Under the pieces are notes generated by a model. That model did no database searches, was not told where the DNA came from, and was given only the letters and a program-made list of their open reading frames with translations. This document shows, piece after piece, positions 5,329 to 46,206 of a stretch of 58,629 bases of DNA. Location: positions 1 through 58,629 of the forward strand of contig CAIKRV010000002.1 in NCBI GenBank assembly GCA_903829945.1. Reading direction: 5' to 3'. The translations under genes and the position numbers were made by a program. Position 1 is the first letter of the stretch. Each line of letters opens with the position of its first letter. The stretch comes from an uncultured bacterium (GTDB lineage Bacteria; Bacteroidota; Bacteroidia; CAILMK01).

Positions 5329-5336
5329 TAATTTTG
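5329..5336 (+). promoter_or_regulatory. -7 promoter element of bshC (TAATTTTG), start-proximal
   Basis: TAATTTTG ends 5 bases before the bshC ATG. With the usual distance from this element to the transcription start, the mRNA would begin at or next to the start codon, with no leader. Confidence 0.55.
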
Positions 5337-5341
5337 TATTC

Positions 5342-6967
5342 ATGCAAATTCAGAATATTCCTTTAATCGATACCGGTCAAATGCATGCGGCAGCCAATGA
5401 TTATCTTTCGCATCCAAGCCTACTCAGTGAGTATATAAATTATTTGCCGGACTTAAAAGGACTGGAACAAGCAATCATTGCACGTCAAAAATACCCTATT
5501 AATCGTTCCCTTTTGGTGGAACGATTGAATGCACAATACCAGGAACTAAATGCTAATTTTTTTAATGAAAACAGCAATAATGCTACCAAGCAAAATATTG
5601 CATTATTCTCACAAGAAAATAGCTTTTGCATCACCACAGGACATCAGCTTAATATTTTTACGGGACCATTATATTTTATTTATAAAATTTGTTCTGCCAT
5701 TAGCTATGCCAAATCACTAAAAAATCTTTTTCCTGAAAAGAACTTTATTCCTGTGTATTGGATGGCAAGTGAAGACCATGATTTTGATGAAATTAATCAT
5801 TTTCATTTATTCGGAAAAACATTAAAATGGGATATTAAACCTTCCGGGGCAGTAGGCAAAATATCCTTACAAAATCCGGATAATGCGGATAAAATTCAGG
5901 AAATAATTCAACAATTATCAGAGTTAATTTCCAGACAAACGGAAGGCCAATATTTATTAGACATTTTCAGGAAAGGATATACCCAAAATGAAAACTTGGC
6001 ACAAGCTACGCGATATATTGTCCACGAACTATTTAAAAATGACGGACTGGTCATTATTGATGCCGACGATGCTTCCTTTAAAAAGCAATTAATCCCGATC
6101 CTAAAACAAGATATTTTCGAAAAGAAATTTCATCCGCTCATTGAAGAAAGTAAAAAACAATTAGAGTTAAAATATAATTCTGTACCCGTAAATCCACGAA
6201 CTATAAATGTCTTTTATTTAGGTAAAGATTTTCGTGTAAGAATTACAGAAAATGAATCAGGATATCAAGCGGAAAATATAAAAAATTGGACTGCCGAAGA
6301 ATTGCTTTTAGAAATAAATAATACACCGGAAAATTTTAGTCCGAATGTTGTTATTCGACCAATGTACCAAGAATTAATTTTACCTAACCTTGCCTATATT
6401 GGAGGCACCAATGAAATTACTTATTGGTTGGAATTAAAATCAGCATTTGAAGCGGGATCCGTCTTTTTCCCACAACTTATTATTCGTGACTCAGCATTAT
6501 GGATTGGGAAAAAGTTTGCAAAGGATATGGAGCTTTTTAAATTAGAGGTCAAAGATTTTTTTCGCAATAAAAATGAAATTAAGCAAGCATTTTATAATGC
6601 TAATGATTTAAAATCGCCTATTGAGGATGATTTAGAAAAATTTGCAATTACCTATGAAGAATTAAAATTACAAGCCCAAAAGCTTAGCTCGGATATTGCT
6701 TCACAATTGGTAAAAATGAGCAATGAGCATTTAAAAGATATTAAAAATATAGGTAAAGAAATACGAAAAAAGAAAGAAGAAGAGAATGAAAAAAGCTTAG
6801 TGAAAATTGACAAAATATTTTATTTAATTTTCCCTGAAAATAACTTTCAAGAAAGATATGATAATTTCATTCCTTATTACCTCCAATATGGCGAAGAATT
6901 TTTTAACATTATAAAGGATTATTTTAATCCATTGAAGGCAGAATTAAAAATATTTTTAGATAAATAA
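5342..6967 (+). CDS. bshC: bacillithiol biosynthesis cysteine-adding enzyme BshC
   Basis: BshC adds cysteine to glucosaminyl-malate in the last step of bacillithiol synthesis. The 541-residue length matches the family. Recognisable blocks are TTGHQLNIFTGPLYFIYKI (about 99-117), WMASEDHDFDEI (about 140-151) and the internal coiled-coil segment near 430-490 rich in Lys and Glu. It starts after rimO with its own promoter, and the 64-residue membrane protein follows 12 bases later. Its presence indicates that the organism uses bacillithiol as a low-molecular-weight thiol; bshA and bshB are not in the window. Confidence 0.93.
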   Translation: MQIQNIPLIDTGQMHAAANDYLSHPSLLSEYINYLPDLKGLEQAIIARQKYPINRSLLVERLNAQYQELNANFFNENSNNATKQNIALFSQENSFCITTGHQLNIFTGPLYFIYKICSAISYAKSLKNLFPEKNFIPVYWMASEDHDFDEINHFHLFGKTLKWDIKPSGAVGKISLQNPDNADKIQEIIQQLSELISRQTEGQYLLDIFRKGYTQNENLAQATRYIVHELFKNDGLVIIDADDASFKKQLIPILKQDIFEKKFHPLIEESKKQLELKYNSVPVNPRTINVFYLGKDFRVRITENESGYQAENIKNWTAEELLLEINNTPENFSPNVVIRPMYQELILPNLAYIGGTNEITYWLELKSAFEAGSVFFPQLIIRDSALWIGKKFAKDMELFKLEVKDFFRNKNEIKQAFYNANDLKSPIEDDLEKFAITYEELKLQAQKLSSDIASQLVKMSNEHLKDIKNIGKEIRKKKEEENEKSLVKIDKIFYLIFPENNFQERYDNFIPYYLQYGEEFFNIIKDYFNPLKAELKIFLDK

Positions 6968-11414: not shown

Positions 11415-12071
11415 TTAATCCCTCCAAAGGTACGGAAAGAGCATATATGAAACAATGATTACTATCATGTTAATTGCCATCAAGGCCATAATATCCTTGG
11501 AGGCCACACTTATATCAAACCCATCTGCAGCTCTTTTGGATAGTTTTATTAAAAATAACAATTGCGGTAAAATAACAGGGAAACTTAAAATTGTCATCAA
11601 GGTAGCGCCACCACTACCCTTTGCTGCAATTCCCGAAATCATAGTAAAATTGGCAGCAAAACCTAAACTCCCCATCACTAAAATTAAAAAGAAGAAGCCA
11701 ATATTTCCAATAACATTGCCAAAAATTACAGCGAATCCAAAATAGGTAATAAACGAAAGGATAAGGAGCAATAAGAAATTATAAAATAATTTTGAAAGGA
11801 TAATATCTTCAGCACTACTTAAAGTATAGTAATACAATAATCTACCCTTACTTTCCTGTAAAAAACTTTTCGCAACAGCATTGACCGAAGCAAATAAAAT
11901 AACCATCCAAAATAAAGTAATCCATATATCCGGACGTAGCTTTTGGAAGCTCATTTGGATAACAAAAAGCGTAGAAAAAACATACAATAAAATACCATTG
12001 AAGGCATATTTTTGCCTCCATTCAATGAGAATATCCTTGCGAACTAACTGATAAATAAGGGATAAATTCAT
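11415..12071 (-). CDS. ccmB: haem exporter permease CcmB
   Basis: CcmB is the membrane partner of the ATPase CcmA in the complex that drives haem release to CcmE. The 218-residue protein has six membrane helices and the family pattern DILIEWRQKYAFNGILLYVFS near the N-terminus. It also has FLQESKGRLLYYYTL and the Gly-rich central helices. It is the first gene of the operon. A TACCTTTG box ends 5 bases before its ATG, so the mRNA may be leaderless. ccmA is not adjacent and must lie elsewhere. Confidence 0.92.
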   Translation of the reverse strand: MNLSLIYQLVRKDILIEWRQKYAFNGILLYVFSTLFVIQMSFQKLRPDIWITLFWMVILFASVNAVAKSFLQESKGRLLYYYTLSSAEDIILSKLFYNFLLLLILSFITYFGFAVIFGNVIGNIGFFFLILVMGSLGFAANFTMISGIAAKGSGGATLMTILSFPVILPQLLFLIKLSKRAADGFDISVASKDIMALMAINMIVIIVSYMLFPYLWRD

Positions 12072-12076
12072 GCTTA

Positions 12077-12084
12077 CAAAGGTA
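12077..12084 (-). promoter_or_regulatory. -7 promoter element of the ccm operon (TACCTTTG), start-proximal
   Basis: The minus strand reads TACCTTTG, then five bases, then the ccmB ATG. This is one of five genes in the window with this very short spacing. Confidence 0.55.
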
Positions 12085-22343: not shown

Positions 22344-22381
22344 AAAAAAGCCTGTTCAAGCCTATTTGAACAGGCTTTTTT
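22344..22381 (+). terminator. terminator after the permease-lipoprotein operon
   Basis: A perfect 16-bp stem (AAAAAAGCCTGTTCAA with its complement) around a 6-base loop, ending in a T run, lies 15 bases after the lipoprotein stop. Confidence 0.9.
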
Positions 22382-22442: not shown

Positions 22443-22450
22443 TATATTTG
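22443..22450 (+). promoter_or_regulatory. -7 promoter element (TATATTTG), start-proximal
   Basis: TATATTTG ends 5 bases before the ATG at 22456, the same spacing as at bshC, ccmB and the topoisomerase gene. Confidence 0.55.
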
Positions 22451-22455
22451 CCCAT

Positions 22456-23670
22456 ATGACACCTTTAAAAATTGGAATACTGCGAGAAGGTAAGGTTCCG
22501 GAAGATAATCGAACCCCATTAAAACCTCGGCAATGTAAGGACTTAATGGAACGCTTTAATAATATATCAATTGTAGTTCAAAGTAGTATGCATCGCTGCT
22601 GCAAAGATGAAGACTACAGAAAATTTGGAATTGAAGTTGTTGAAAATATGAGTTCTTGCGATTTACTGCTAGGTATAAAAGAAGTTCGTGTAGATTGGCT
22701 AATCCCTGAAAAAACGTATATGTTTTTTTCACATACCACTAAAAAACAAGCACATAATCAAAAATTACTCCAAGCCATTGCGGCTAAAAATGATACTTTA
22801 ATTGATTACGAAATGCTTACCGATGAAAAAGGCAATCGCTTAATCGGTTTTGGAAAATGGGCAGGCATTGTAGGAGCACATTATGCATTGGTAATGATTG
22901 GTCAAGCTTTTGAACTTTACCATTTAAAGGCTGCAAATAAATGTGTAAATCTTCAGGAAGTATTGGATCAATATGAGGATGTTGTATTCCCAAACTTAAA
23001 ATATGTGGTAACAGGGAGCGGAAGAGTGGCCACCGGGGCGATTGAGGTTATGCATGTAGCAGGAATTCAACAAGTAACAAAGGAAGAATTCTTGACTAAA
23101 ACCTTTGCGTATCCTGTTTTTGTGCAATTATTCTCGGAAGATTTATATGAAAATATGGAAGGTCAAGCATACAATAGAAAACATTTTCATGCCCATCCGG
23201 AACAATATAGAAGCATTTTTGAGCCATTTACAAGAGTAGCTGATGTATTAATTAACTGCATATTTTGGAAACCGGGTACGGCCAGATTATTTGAATGCGA
23301 TGATATTAAAAAACAGGATTTTAAAATTAATGTTATTGCTGATGTCTCTTGTGATGTAAATGGTGCCGTGCCGATTACCTTCAAAGAAACTACCATACAA
23401 GATCCTTTATACGGCGTGGATAAAACCAATTTAGAAATAACTGCACCCTATGCCAAAAACACCATATCTTTAATGGCAGTAAGTAACTTACCAAATGAAT
23501 TGCCTTTAGATGCCTCCCGTGATTTTGGAATTGTGATGATGGATACCGTCATTCCTAAATTTCTCTATAGCCAGGATTTCCCAATTTTTGAACGTGCTAC
23601 CATTATCCGAAATGGTGAACTAACTCCAAGGTATCACTATTTGAATGATTATTTGCAACCTGAAAATTAA
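22456..23670 (+). CDS. saccharopine dehydrogenase (LYS1)-like / AlaDH-PNT family oxidoreductase
   Basis: A 404-residue two-domain NAD-dependent dehydrogenase. The N-terminal substrate domain has PEDNRTPLKPRQ, LLLGIKEV with Lys75, and FFSHTTKKQ with His93. These positions match the catalytic Lys and His of fungal lysine-forming saccharopine dehydrogenase, and FGKWAGIVGAH also fits. The nucleotide-binding motif is VVTGSGRVATGA. A general alanine dehydrogenase role is less likely. No saccharopine reductase or lysine pathway gene is nearby, so the metabolic role is open. It has its own, possibly leaderless, promoter. Confidence 0.78.
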   Translation: MTPLKIGILREGKVPEDNRTPLKPRQCKDLMERFNNISIVVQSSMHRCCKDEDYRKFGIEVVENMSSCDLLLGIKEVRVDWLIPEKTYMFFSHTTKKQAHNQKLLQAIAAKNDTLIDYEMLTDEKGNRLIGFGKWAGIVGAHYALVMIGQAFELYHLKAANKCVNLQEVLDQYEDVVFPNLKYVVTGSGRVATGAIEVMHVAGIQQVTKEEFLTKTFAYPVFVQLFSEDLYENMEGQAYNRKHFHAHPEQYRSIFEPFTRVADVLINCIFWKPGTARLFECDDIKKQDFKINVIADVSCDVNGAVPITFKETTIQDPLYGVDKTNLEITAPYAKNTISLMAVSNLPNELPLDASRDFGIVMMDTVIPKFLYSQDFPIFERATIIRNGELTPRYHYLNDYLQPEN

Positions 23671-27471: not shown

Positions 27472-27479
27472 TATATTTG
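27472..27479 (+). promoter_or_regulatory. -7 promoter element of the topoisomerase gene (TATATTTG), start-proximal
   Basis: TATATTTG followed by C ends 5 bases before the ATG at 27485, implying a leaderless or nearly leaderless mRNA. Confidence 0.55.
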
Positions 27480-27484
27480 CACCT

Positions 27485-30166
27485 ATGAAAGAAGAGGTAA
27501 AGCCGGAGGGAGAAGAAAGTATTCATCAAGTGAAGGCAGTTGATGGGATGTATGAAAATTACTTCCTTGATTATGCCTCGTATGTAATTCTTGAGCGTGC
27601 GGTACCAGCCATGGAAGACGGGCTTAAGCCTGTACAGCGCAGGATTTTACATGCCATGAAAGAAATGGATGATGGTCGTTTCAATAAAGTTGCGAACATT
27701 ATCGGCTCCTCTATGCAATACCACCCGCATGGCGATGCGGCTATTGGCGATGCCATTGTAAATCTCGGTCAAAAAGAGCTTTTAATTGAAACTCAAGGTA
27801 ACTGGGGTGATATCAGAACCGGAGATCCGGCAGCTGCTCCCAGATATATTGAGGCTCGACTTTCAAAATTTGCTTTAGAAGTAGCCTTCAATGCCCAAAC
27901 CACGGTATGGCAATCATCTTATGATGGAAGAAAAAAGGAGCCCGTAACCTTACCTATGAAATTCCCTTTACTCCTGGCACAAGGCGTAGATGGTATTGCA
28001 GTGGGCCTAGCTACTAAAATTATGCCTCATAATTTTATTGAGTTGGTCAATGCTTCTATAGATATATTAAGAAAAAAATCCGTTAATCTGCTTCCGGATT
28101 TTCCTACCGGTGGAACAGCTGATTTCTCCAATTATAATGAAGGTAAACGTGGAGGCAAAATTCGTGTTAGGGCAAAAATAGAAGAGCAAGACAAAAGAAC
28201 TTTATTAATTAAAGATATTCCCTACGGTACTACTACTACTTCCTTAATGGAAAGTATTGTAAAAGCAAATGATATCGGGAAAATCAAAATTAAAAAAGTA
28301 ATTGATAACACTGCAAAGGATGTTGAAATTGAAATTCAACTGCATCCAGGCACTTCCCCGGATATAACCATTGACGCATTGTATGCTTTTACAGAATGTG
28401 AAGTTTCTATTTCTCCTAACGCTTGTTTGATTATTGACGACAAGCCGGTATTCATGGGAGTAAATGATATTCTAAAAGTCAATACACGCAATACCGTTGA
28501 TTTATTAAAACGTGAACTCGAAATTAAACGTGGAGAATTGGAAGATAAATGGCACTTCTCTTCTCTTGAAAAAATATTTATTGAAAAAAGGATTTATCAC
28601 AGAATTGAAGAGTGCGAAACATGGGAAGCCGTCATTCAAGAAATTGATAAAGGATTAAAACCTTATAAAAAATTATTTAAGCGTATCATTACCGAAGAAG
28701 ATATCGTTCGCTTAACTGAAATAAAAATTAAGCGTATTTCTAAGTTTGATTCTTTTAAAGCCAATGAGGCCATTAAGGCATTGGAAAATGATATTAAGGA
28801 AGTTAATTATCATTTAGAAAACTTAGTAGAATATGCGATTAATTATTATAAAAATCTACTTAAAAAATATTCTGCAGGCAAAGAAAGAAAAACTGAAATT
28901 CGCAATTTCGAAGTTATCAAAGCCAGTAGCGTTGCGGTTGCCAATCAAAAATTATTCGTTAATCGTGAAGAAGGTTTCATCGGATATGGACTTAAAAAAG
29001 ATGAATACATTTCTGAATGTTCCGATTTAGATGATATTATTATTTTTAGACGAGACGGGAAATGTTTAGTAACTAAAGTCTCCGAGAAATCTTTTGTAGG
29101 AAAAGATATCATCCATGTGCAAGTATGGAAGAAAAATGATGAGCGCATGATTTATAATATGGCTTATGTAGACGGTAAAACCGGAATAAGCAAAGTAAAA
29201 CGATTTGCAGTAACGGCAATTACCAGGGATAAGGAATATGATTTAACCAGTGGCAATCCAAGGTCTAAAGTATTATATTTTTCTGCTAATCCAAATTCGG
29301 AATCAGAAATTGTAAATGTAATGCTCTCCCCTGCCTCCGGAGCAAGAAATAAAATATTTGATTTTGATTTTGCAGAATTAGAAATTAAAGGAAGAGCTTC
29401 TCAAGGAAATATTTTGAGTAAGTATGCCATAAAGCAAATTAAATTCAAAGAAAAAGGCGCTTCTACTTTAGGAGGAAGAGATATTTGGTACGATGAAATT
29501 CAAGGACGTCTCAATGTAGATGAAAGAGGCAAATATCTTGGCTCGTTTGATTTGGATGATACCATCTTAGTCATCACCTCCGATGGGAATTATGAAATCA
29601 CAAATTTTGAATTAACTAATAGGTATGATGCCGAGCATGTCATGCTCATAGAGAAGTTCCGACCTGATGCCATTGTGAGTGCCGTACATTATGATATGGT
29701 ACATAAATCTACCTATATTAAACGCTTCCTTATCGAAACCACCACACAGGGTAAAAAATTTAGTTTTATCAGTGAAGGCAGAAATTCGAAATTATTATTG
29801 GTAACTACGCAATTACATCCTATTATTGAAGTGGCTACCGGTAAAAAAACGAATAAACGCTTAGTAAATATTGATTTGGTAGATTTTGTGGATGTTCGTG
29901 GTTGGAAAGCGATTGGCAATAAACTCAATGAAGATCCTATTCATGAGCTAAAACTCATCTCAGAAGATGCCTTACCGGATATTATGGCGATGGAACATCC
30001 TGAAGATTTCATGGATCCTGAAGATATGGTTATAATTAAAAAACCAATGCCGAAGGAAACAGTAGCAAAACCAAAATCATCTGTCGCAACACATCCCAAG
30101 AAATTACCGGCTACAAAAGGTAAAAAAGGTGGAAAGGGCTCCGGTGGTCAAATGAAAATGTTTTAG
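27485..30166 (+). CDS. parC: type IIA topoisomerase subunit A (topoisomerase IV, ParC-like)
   Basis: This is the DNA-cleaving subunit of a type II topoisomerase, 893 residues. The breakage-reunion domain has LDYASYVILERAVP, LKPVQRRILHAM, the resistance-determining region near MQYHPHGDAAIG (77-88), and the active-site Tyr121 in AAAPRYIEARLS. The C-terminal half is a beta-pinwheel-like domain, ending in a Lys/Gly-rich tail. The canonical GyrA box is not obvious, which with the overall form favours topoisomerase IV over gyrase. The partner ATPase subunit is not adjacent. Confidence 0.9.
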   Translation: MKEEVKPEGEESIHQVKAVDGMYENYFLDYASYVILERAVPAMEDGLKPVQRRILHAMKEMDDGRFNKVANIIGSSMQYHPHGDAAIGDAIVNLGQKELLIETQGNWGDIRTGDPAAAPRYIEARLSKFALEVAFNAQTTVWQSSYDGRKKEPVTLPMKFPLLLAQGVDGIAVGLATKIMPHNFIELVNASIDILRKKSVNLLPDFPTGGTADFSNYNEGKRGGKIRVRAKIEEQDKRTLLIKDIPYGTTTTSLMESIVKANDIGKIKIKKVIDNTAKDVEIEIQLHPGTSPDITIDALYAFTECEVSISPNACLIIDDKPVFMGVNDILKVNTRNTVDLLKRELEIKRGELEDKWHFSSLEKIFIEKRIYHRIEECETWEAVIQEIDKGLKPYKKLFKRIITEEDIVRLTEIKIKRISKFDSFKANEAIKALENDIKEVNYHLENLVEYAINYYKNLLKKYSAGKERKTEIRNFEVIKASSVAVANQKLFVNREEGFIGYGLKKDEYISECSDLDDIIIFRRDGKCLVTKVSEKSFVGKDIIHVQVWKKNDERMIYNMAYVDGKTGISKVKRFAVTAITRDKEYDLTSGNPRSKVLYFSANPNSESEIVNVMLSPASGARNKIFDFDFAELEIKGRASQGNILSKYAIKQIKFKEKGASTLGGRDIWYDEIQGRLNVDERGKYLGSFDLDDTILVITSDGNYEITNFELTNRYDAEHVMLIEKFRPDAIVSAVHYDMVHKSTYIKRFLIETTTQGKKFSFISEGRNSKLLLVTTQLHPIIEVATGKKTNKRLVNIDLVDFVDVRGWKAIGNKLNEDPIHELKLISEDALPDIMAMEHPEDFMDPEDMVIIKKPMPKETVAKPKSSVATHPKKLPATKGKKGGKGSGGQMKMF

Positions 30167-44520: not shown

Positions 44521-46194
44521 TTATTTGCTTAAATGTAATAAATATAATTTCCTGCAAGCCGATGCTCGACTATTCGGATTTATAAACTTTGTATTGAGTA
44601 AGGCCACTGCAAAATATGGCTTAGCCATTATGGTATCAATTTTATAATGTGCTTCTGCCTTTACAATATCAGTTAATTTTTCACGCTCCACTCTTATATA
44701 AAAGGATCCTTGTTTTTGATATACGGAATCTAATTGCTTTTCTGTAAATAAAACAGGAACGATACTCCTACTGTAAAAATTAATAGAACGTGTAGACTCT
44801 GCATAGGCAAAAAACTGATGTTCCGGGATTTTATTTGCCGCTACCCATCTTCCTATGCTATTATCCGATTGGTATTTCAATAATTCCGGATATACCGATG
44901 CATTTATCATATAATTTGCTCCTACCATCGTCAATACACTCAAATAAATAAGCTTATGCGGAAAGCTTTTTACTTTTAATGCAAACCATAAAATTAATAA
45001 CCCAAATAATATTCCTATCACCGGTATCCAGCTATGGGAGGCAGGGAAGAAATAAGTACACAAGCTTAGTGCTAATAACGATATAATTATTAATATAATA
45101 TGGGTGGCAGCAGCCAGCCATTTATATATTTTAGATCTTGCCTCAAACAAATAAACCATATAGCTGGCCGTAAGAATAGCCGAATAGGGCATTAAAACAT
45201 ATATGTAATGCGGCAATTTATACTTTGATAATGATAATGCAAGGAAAGCTAATAAAAATGCACCAAACGAGAATAATTCAACATCCTTACTAAAAAACTT
45301 TTCACGCAATATTTTAAGACCTTTCCAAAATATGGCGGGGAACAAAAATAAGGTCCATGGCAAAAATTGCCACGCTATATTATGAACGAAAAATAAATAA
45401 CCGCTATCATTTTTCCATTCACTTTCCCCGGTTATTCTACCAAAACTTTGTGTCCATAAAAAAAACCTAGGTCCTTTAACACCATATTGTTCATATAAGC
45501 CGTACAACATAGGACTAAGCATTAAAGCCACTATCATCAGGCCCATTAGCCATTGCCACTTAAATATTAACTTCCACTGACGCTTTAGAACTATTTCTGT
45601 ACCAAATGCAAAGATTGGAATCATCATCCCAATGGGCCCTTTGGCAAGCATGGCTAATCCAATCCCGATAAAGCCTAATACCACATGAATCAGTTTACCA
45701 TTTTTTGTAAATAAACTCAATTGCCAGATGCAAAAAATTATTGCGCCTGTAAGCATGGTATCGGTGCGAACATCATTAACAAATATAAAAAATGCTTGTG
45801 CGGAGGCCAATATTAATGCTGCAAAATATGCCACTTGTTCACCGTAATACAATTTTGCAAAACGATAGGTACTGTATATGGCCAAAATTGCAAATAAGAG
45901 AGAAGGAAATTTAAATACGAAGTTAGATACCCCGAATACTGCATAAAATGTGGATGTAATCCAAAAAATAAGTGGCGGCTTATCCAAATAGTTTCTTCCG
46001 CAATCCAATATTTGCAAATAATGTTTAGAAACCAACATTTCGCGGCTCATAGCTGCATATTGTGCAGCATCTACATCCATTACATCTATAAATAAACCAA
46101 TAATATAGACTACAAATAGCAGTACAAAGGGCAAACATATTAAATACGGATATTTTTTAATAAATTGCTGCACAGATCTTGCATCGTTATTCAT
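44521..46194 (-). CDS. GT39-family (ArnT-like) membrane glycosyltransferase
   Basis: A 557-residue integral membrane protein with about 12 helices. The GT39/ArnT motifs are visible near the N-terminus: VDAAQYAAMSREM with the key acidic residue, and YLDKPPLIFWITS. A soluble periplasmic domain ends the protein. It would transfer a sugar from a polyprenyl phosphate donor to lipid A, protein or another acceptor at the periplasmic face; the acceptor is unknown. It heads the leftward operon with bcp and pdxH. A promoter box ends 4 bases before its ATG. Confidence 0.88.
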   Translation of the reverse strand: MNNDARSVQQFIKKYPYLICLPFVLLFVVYIIGLFIDVMDVDAAQYAAMSREMLVSKHYLQILDCGRNYLDKPPLIFWITSTFYAVFGVSNFVFKFPSLLFAILAIYSTYRFAKLYYGEQVAYFAALILASAQAFFIFVNDVRTDTMLTGAIIFCIWQLSLFTKNGKLIHVVLGFIGIGLAMLAKGPIGMMIPIFAFGTEIVLKRQWKLIFKWQWLMGLMIVALMLSPMLYGLYEQYGVKGPRFFLWTQSFGRITGESEWKNDSGYLFFVHNIAWQFLPWTLFLFPAIFWKGLKILREKFFSKDVELFSFGAFLLAFLALSLSKYKLPHYIYVLMPYSAILTASYMVYLFEARSKIYKWLAAATHIILIIISLLALSLCTYFFPASHSWIPVIGILFGLLILWFALKVKSFPHKLIYLSVLTMVGANYMINASVYPELLKYQSDNSIGRWVAANKIPEHQFFAYAESTRSINFYSRSIVPVLFTEKQLDSVYQKQGSFYIRVEREKLTDIVKAEAHYKIDTIMAKPYFAVALLNTKFINPNSRASACRKLYLLHLSK

Positions 46195-46198
46195 TAAG

Positions 46199-46206
46199 CA
46201 AAGTTA
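46199..46206 (-). promoter_or_regulatory. -7 promoter element of the GT39 operon (TAACTTTG), start-proximal
   Basis: The minus strand reads TAACTTTG, then CTTA, then the ATG, so the leader would be absent. Confidence 0.55.

Follow-up and report, generated by a model that had tools for sequence, protein, structure and literature searches.

Close boxes at five start codons

The window, that is, the whole stretch of DNA that was analysed (58,629 nt), is the beginning of contig 2 of a genome (G000) of 2,907,982 b in 97 contigs, and five of its genes carry a -7 box of the TAnnTTTG type only four or five bases before the ATG. On the plus strand, the box TAATTTTG (5329..5336) has a gap of 5 to the ATG at 5342 of bshC (5342..6967; Pfam BshC, 9.5e-107, match from residue 1), and TATATTTG occurs twice, at 22443..22450 with a gap of 5 to the ATG at 22456 of a LYS1-like gene (22456..23670; Pfam AlaDh/PNT N-terminal domain, 1.8e-19) and at 27472..27479 with a gap of 5 to the ATG at 27485 of parC (27485..30166; Pfam DNA_topoisoIV, 6.7e-107). 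On the minus strand, TACCTTTG (12077..12084) has a gap of 5 to the ATG at 12071 of a ccmB-like gene (11415..12071; Pfam CcmB, 4.2e-9), and TAACTTTG (46199..46206) a gap of 4 to the ATG at 46194 of a gene for a GT39-like membrane glycosyltransferase (44521..46194; Pfam PMT_2, 3e-20). The predicted leader of the mRNA is 0 nt for the GT39-like gene and 0-1 nt for each of the other four. We checked the sequence and found the five boxes at the positions and gaps given in the initial annotation. All of them fit the form TAHHTTTG, with G at neither variable position, and each is the single exact TAnnTTTG in the 250 b upstream of its gene.

The open reading frames (ORFs) were called mechanically, from the first ATG and with a length of at least 80 aa, so the start codons might be mis-assigned, the true start being a later in-frame codon behind an ordinary leader. 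ParC would agree with this, as its N-terminus is variable and in many orthologues the alignment sets in only at about residue 8-22. The other genes argue against it: many orthologue alignments of BshC start at the same Met (residue 1), LYS1 orthologues mostly align from residues 1-7 and CcmB orthologues mostly from 1-9, and the ccmB orthologue in G002 has the same Met start. Besides, codons 2-25 differ mostly at third positions, with 6/3/15 differences by codon position for LYS1 (compared with G001), 11/4/14 for bshC and 7/2/14 for ccmB, which also speaks for translation from the called ATG. Together with the spacing evidence given below, this makes mis-assigned starts quite improbable. Here and below, relatives are labelled with G-numbers: G001 belongs to the same genus, G002 and G003 to the same family, and the other numbers denote further relatives and the genomes of the phylum survey.

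Spacing between box and ATG in the genome

The sample consisted of the window and 40 further stretches of 20 kb each, 858,629 b in all and about 30% of the genome, which gave 660 upstream regions, 50 in the window and 610 outside. The gap was defined as the number of bases between the end of a TAHHTTTG box and the ATG, and 200 dinucleotide shuffles served as background. Among the 660 ATG ORFs, 18 boxes lie at gap 4 and 8 at gap 5, gaps 6-11 hold 4, 7, 5, 2, 3 and 1 boxes, and a second, broad mode appears at gaps 16-20 with 7-11 boxes per gap. Outside the window, gap 4 holds 17 genes versus 0.44 in the shuffles, well above gaps 6-15, which hold 3.4 on average (P=1e-7), and gap 5 holds 4 genes versus 0.455 in the shuffles, close to the same neighbour average (P=0.44). 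In the whole genome, TANNTTTG-N4-ATG occurs 147 times versus 53 for the reversed pattern, and TANNTTTG-N5-ATG 86 times versus 60. It turned out, then, that the sharp peak near the ATG predicted for a genome-wide histogram is present in the sampled 30% of the genome, at gap 4; wrongly assigned starts would smear the spacing instead. The initial annotation had described the spacing as bimodal with a peak at 4-5, of which the two modes and the gap-4 peak hold genome-wide, whereas gap 5 is only a shoulder that does not exceed its neighbours outside the window. It had also placed the other boxes 11-54 bases from their start codons. In the sample, gaps 6-14 are populated too (32 boxes, and 57 at gaps 15-23), and the remaining boxed ORFs of the window have gaps of 6 to 53.

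Within this sample, the window is mildly enriched in gap-4/5 genes (5 of 50 ORFs versus 1.7 expected from the rest, P=0.03), and it contributes four of the eight gap-5 genes, so the choice of the window flattered the gap-5 class. Raw counts of TAHHTTTG-Nd-XTG for start-codon specificity in this genome were too noisy and were rejected, gene starts being a small share of the matches.

As the genome is AT-rich, boxes near an ATG might be chance matches, with the genes owing their expression to read-through or to other promoters. Both bshC and ccmB have a same-strand gene 57-67 bp upstream, and therefore a read-through transcript with a leader is possible there; a sigma-70 and terminator scan around bshC gave nothing exceeding its shuffles. 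Ahead of the LYS1-like gene, the fold of the intergenic region contains a terminator-like hairpin of 16 pairs with a T-rich 3' arm (22344..22381, plus strand), which lies before the box and makes a long read-through leader less likely. Chance is also hard to reconcile with an expectation of only 0.44-0.46 boxes per gap for 610 genes and with the single exact box upstream of each of the five genes. Moreover, the close boxes carry a signature that the distant ones share: a pyrimidine-A follows directly in 13 of 26 close boxes (P=5e-4) and in 44 of 140 boxes at gaps 12-60 (P=1e-3), versus 193 of the 1007 boxes that the 40 stretches contain at any position. We thus regard chance matches as very improbable.

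Unit heads and the predicted 5' ends

The close boxes stand where promoters are expected to stand if unit heads are called from spacing and strand alone. An upstream neighbour is visible for 601 genes. Each of the 25 gap-4/5 genes among them is divergent from that neighbour or lies 40 bp or more away from it, as do 386 of the 576 other genes (P=9e-5), and gap-4/5 genes make up 25 of the 144 unit heads (at least 40 bp upstream) that carry a box at gaps 0-50. A -33 TTG, 15-24 b upstream of the box, is rare in both classes (1 of 26 gap-4/5 promoters and 20 of 125 leadered promoters); this element is hard to see in Flavobacterium johnsoniae too and so does not define the family there. As independent proof of promoters it was set aside, since it speaks neither for nor against them.

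Some further features of these regions were recorded. The same-strand intergenic distance in the sample has a median of 66 bp before gap-4/5 genes (n=15) versus 129.5 bp for gaps 12-50 (n=48). On contig 1, a divergent gene pair (locus L112, 4782-7950) is separated by 118 bp, and both genes have a gap-4 box. In the relative G049, 22 of 38 boxes at gaps 12-50 and 5 of 25 at gaps 4-5 have a TTG located 15-24 b upstream, and the leadered and leaderless promoters of that genome may differ in the -33 element.

In F. johnsoniae the mapped start lies 4-5 nt after the box, the distance being a distribution, and in F. psychrophilum the box covers -12 to -5 (PMC9723704). With these published values, gap 4 would place transcription on the A of the ATG, and gap 5 on the A or the base before it. 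The leadered promoters of the genome itself agree with this position, as A is common five bases past the box (50%, versus 34% at the fourth base). Transcription starts favour purines, and the bases preceding the ATG at the four gap-5 genes of the window are C, C, T and T, so that the A of the ATG is the likelier start there. A is also frequent two bases past the box, and for this reason some of the A-at-minus-3 signal before start codons can stem from promoters and not from the mRNA.

We propose the following mechanism, for which the boxes, the spacing peak, the unit-head positions and the conserved spacing of one gene (described below) are direct observations. Each of the five boxes would be the -7 element of a primary-sigma promoter; at gap 4 transcription would begin with the A of the start codon, and at gap 5 with that A or the preceding base, and the resulting mRNA would be leaderless or have a leader of 1 nt. 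The ribosome would bind the 5'-terminal AUG directly, through the initiator-tRNA route that leaderless mRNAs are known to use, and initiate without Shine-Dalgarno pairing and without an A-rich unstructured leader. That the five boxes are primary-sigma -7 elements abutting the start, with leaders of 0-1 nt, is highly probable, the 5' ends being deduced from published spacing and the route of translation being inferred as well. A different start of translation at these mRNAs is plausible. The idea of the initial annotation that transcription begins at or beside the A of the ATG has gained support from the gap-4 peak and from the published spacing in two Flavobacterium species.

Real promoters might also start a few bases earlier, or slippage might extend the RNA, which would give leaders of 2-4 nt instead of 0-1. 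The variable box-to-start distance of F. johnsoniae would permit such leaders, and G049 and G053 show boxes at gaps 3, 6 and 7 too. The F. psychrophilum box, which itself ends at -5, points the other way, and a peak exactly at gap 4, with the fixed spacer length of the cvfB-like gene, better fits transcription from the A of the ATG. Leaders of 2-4 nt are therefore unlikely.

Close spacing among relatives and across the class

To a certain extent the close arrangement is found at the orthologues of the five genes. For parC, the gap is 5 in G001 and G002 and 10 in G003, and between G000 and G001 the box, together with most of its spacer, forms an island of identity with diverged flanks. For the LYS1-like gene the gap is 5 in G001 and 4 in G003, while bshC has gap 8 in G001 and ccmB gap 8 in G002. 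Beyond the family, close boxes are scattered: gap 4 in G013 and G027 and gap 5 in G023 for LYS1, gap 4 in G035 for bshC, and gap 4 in G012 for ccmB. A box at gap 4-5 is absent from most of the 30 bshC, 30 parC and 24 ccmB loci examined (for bshC, 30 of 52 matching genomes were taken in), and of five distant GT39 orthologues examined, the three that carry an ATG close to the aligned start all lack a gap-4/5 box. This putative promoter arrangement turns over between genera and is not kept at every gene. At three orthologue loci (bshC L158, ccmB L222 and LYS1 L260), TAAATTTG or TAAATTCG boxes lie four bases before a GTG or an ATG, which hints that the box should be defined more widely and that GUG is used.

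A fixed spacing was found at a cvfB-like gene (S1_2 and CvfB_WH domains), which is a neighbour of parC, is not one of the five and was met among 80 parC loci. The comparison comprises 23 loci whose aligned start is an ATG, from named Cyclobacteriaceae and relatives (Algoriphagus, Belliella, Aquiflexum and others); two loci were dropped, one without a start and one starting 9 bases upstream (gap 6). A TAHHTTTG/A box lies exactly 4 bases before the ATG in 19 of the 23, with the final G in 15, and the other four have no such box there. As the genera are related, the 19 cases are not independent events. The box columns hold 1.3-2.0 bits, compared with 0.2, 0.3, 0.1 and 0.8 bits in the four spacer columns, and 17 of the 19 spacers are distinct. 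A constant length with a drifting sequence matches what is expected of selection on the distance from promoter to AUG, and the same Met with a box at the same distance again speaks against mis-assigned starts. A second histogram from 34 Cyclobacteriaceae-type loci (16 gap-4 genes) was rejected, as 14 of the 16 are one orthologous gene and were therefore counted as a single gene traced across many species.

For the class, we counted patterns in 60 genomes (the genome itself and 59 relatives) with N2-ATG as the background, chosen because the reversed-pattern control undercounts the background in some genomes. The totals are 4598 for N4-ATG, 3506 for N5 and 2493 for N2; N4 exceeds N2 in 54 of the 60 genomes (P=1e-10) and N5 does so in 53. 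Judged by these sequence counts, the near-start promoter design is recurrent across the class and not a coincidence. The ratio of N4 to N2 varies widely, from 43/47 in G004 and 28/46 in G043 to 317/83 in G049, 153/15 in G053 and 78/7 in G020, and the genome studied here ranks 28th of 60.

In G053 (194 kb with 146 ORFs, a modest sample from a fragmented assembly; loci L305-L314 and L342-L354), 21 of 29 boxes lie at gaps 3-7. Boxes at gaps 4-5 make up 25 of 97 in G049 (274 kb, 213 ORFs; loci L295-L304 and L335-L341), 10 of 31 in G027 (140 kb), 3 of 19 in G030 (140 kb) and 1 of 12 in G004 (68 kb, 53 ORFs). Besides, GTG at gap 4 occurs 8 times in G053 versus about 0.75 per background gap, the genome-wide gap-4 GTG pattern 63 times versus 6 for the reversed one, and GTG accounts for 7 of the 16 gap-4 starts among its ORFs, which suggests leaderless GUG starts in this lineage of Bacteroidia. 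SD-like 5-mers are rare in all three samples (8 of 146 in G053, 6 of 214 in G049 and 5 of 662 in our own), and a 16S 3'-end pattern, searched for the state of the anti-SD, matched 0 of 354 loci. The chances are about even that some lineages (G053 and partly G049) have a TAnnTTTG abutting the start as their main architecture, with AUG and GUG leaderless starts, while G004 and G043 have largely abandoned it. If so, leaderless initiation would be a major route of translation in G053-type lineages and no rarity.

The box is the one of the Bacteroidota sigma-ABfr-type primary-sigma promoters, with TAnnTTTG at -7 and, here, a pyrimidine-A common to close and distant boxes; what differs from such promoters in general is a subset placed so that the start would coincide with the start codon. 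The transcripts would belong to the same class as the leaderless mRNAs reported for a minority of Bacteroidota genes: 5.5% in F. psychrophilum (PMC9723704), while in Bacteroides thetaiotaomicron about 3.7% of the leaders are shorter than 10 nt (PMC7366714). In F. johnsoniae, 87% of leaders exceed 10 nt and 13% do not; leaderless mRNAs do not account for the missing SD sequences there and are a minority class in the phylum. The gap-4/5 share of boxed unit heads in our genome (25 of 144) is a sequence-only figure and so not directly comparable with these values; for G053 the count is 21 of 29 boxes at gaps 3-7. A 2011 survey (PMC3160421) identified only Pribnow-like boxes, classed many Bacteroidetes genes as 'atypical' and states that leaderless genes may be underestimated in this group. 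The same survey describes TA-led leaderless genes in Actinobacteria and Deinococcus-Thermus, where TANNNT precedes the start by about 12 bp; they likewise have a fixed short distance from box to start, but a sigma recognition sequence different from TAnnTTTG. Leaderless mRNAs at 4-6% in two Bacteroidota are thus already known, and the mechanism is of a known kind. What seems new in these sequences is the peak over the genome, the conservation of the spacing and a lineage in which boxes near the start, including those before GTG, apparently dominate; for a TAnnTTTG-N4-ATG peak or lineage variation of leaderless use in Bacteroidota, we found no report in the literature searched, most subscription papers lying outside it.

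Bacteroidia barely use Shine-Dalgarno pairing, and the choice of start codons by their ribosomes is still being worked out, with sequestration of the anti-SD by bS21/bS18/bS6 described in two papers (PMC9976891, PMC10783764). The signature of a box, four free bases and ATG marks probable leaderless genes and differs strongly by lineage, which makes the question of start choice testable from genomes and points to the species suited to mapping; how far the leaderless design extends and how it varies between lineages is what deserves following up. In the survey of the phylum, N4-ATG exceeds the reversed control in 47 of 49 genomes of the same class and in 91 of 149 others, and the latter are unfit as a clean negative control because families differ too much. 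In family f69, which is outside the class too, N4-ATG lies well above the reversed control, with 35 versus 3 in G198 and 25 versus 3 in G190.
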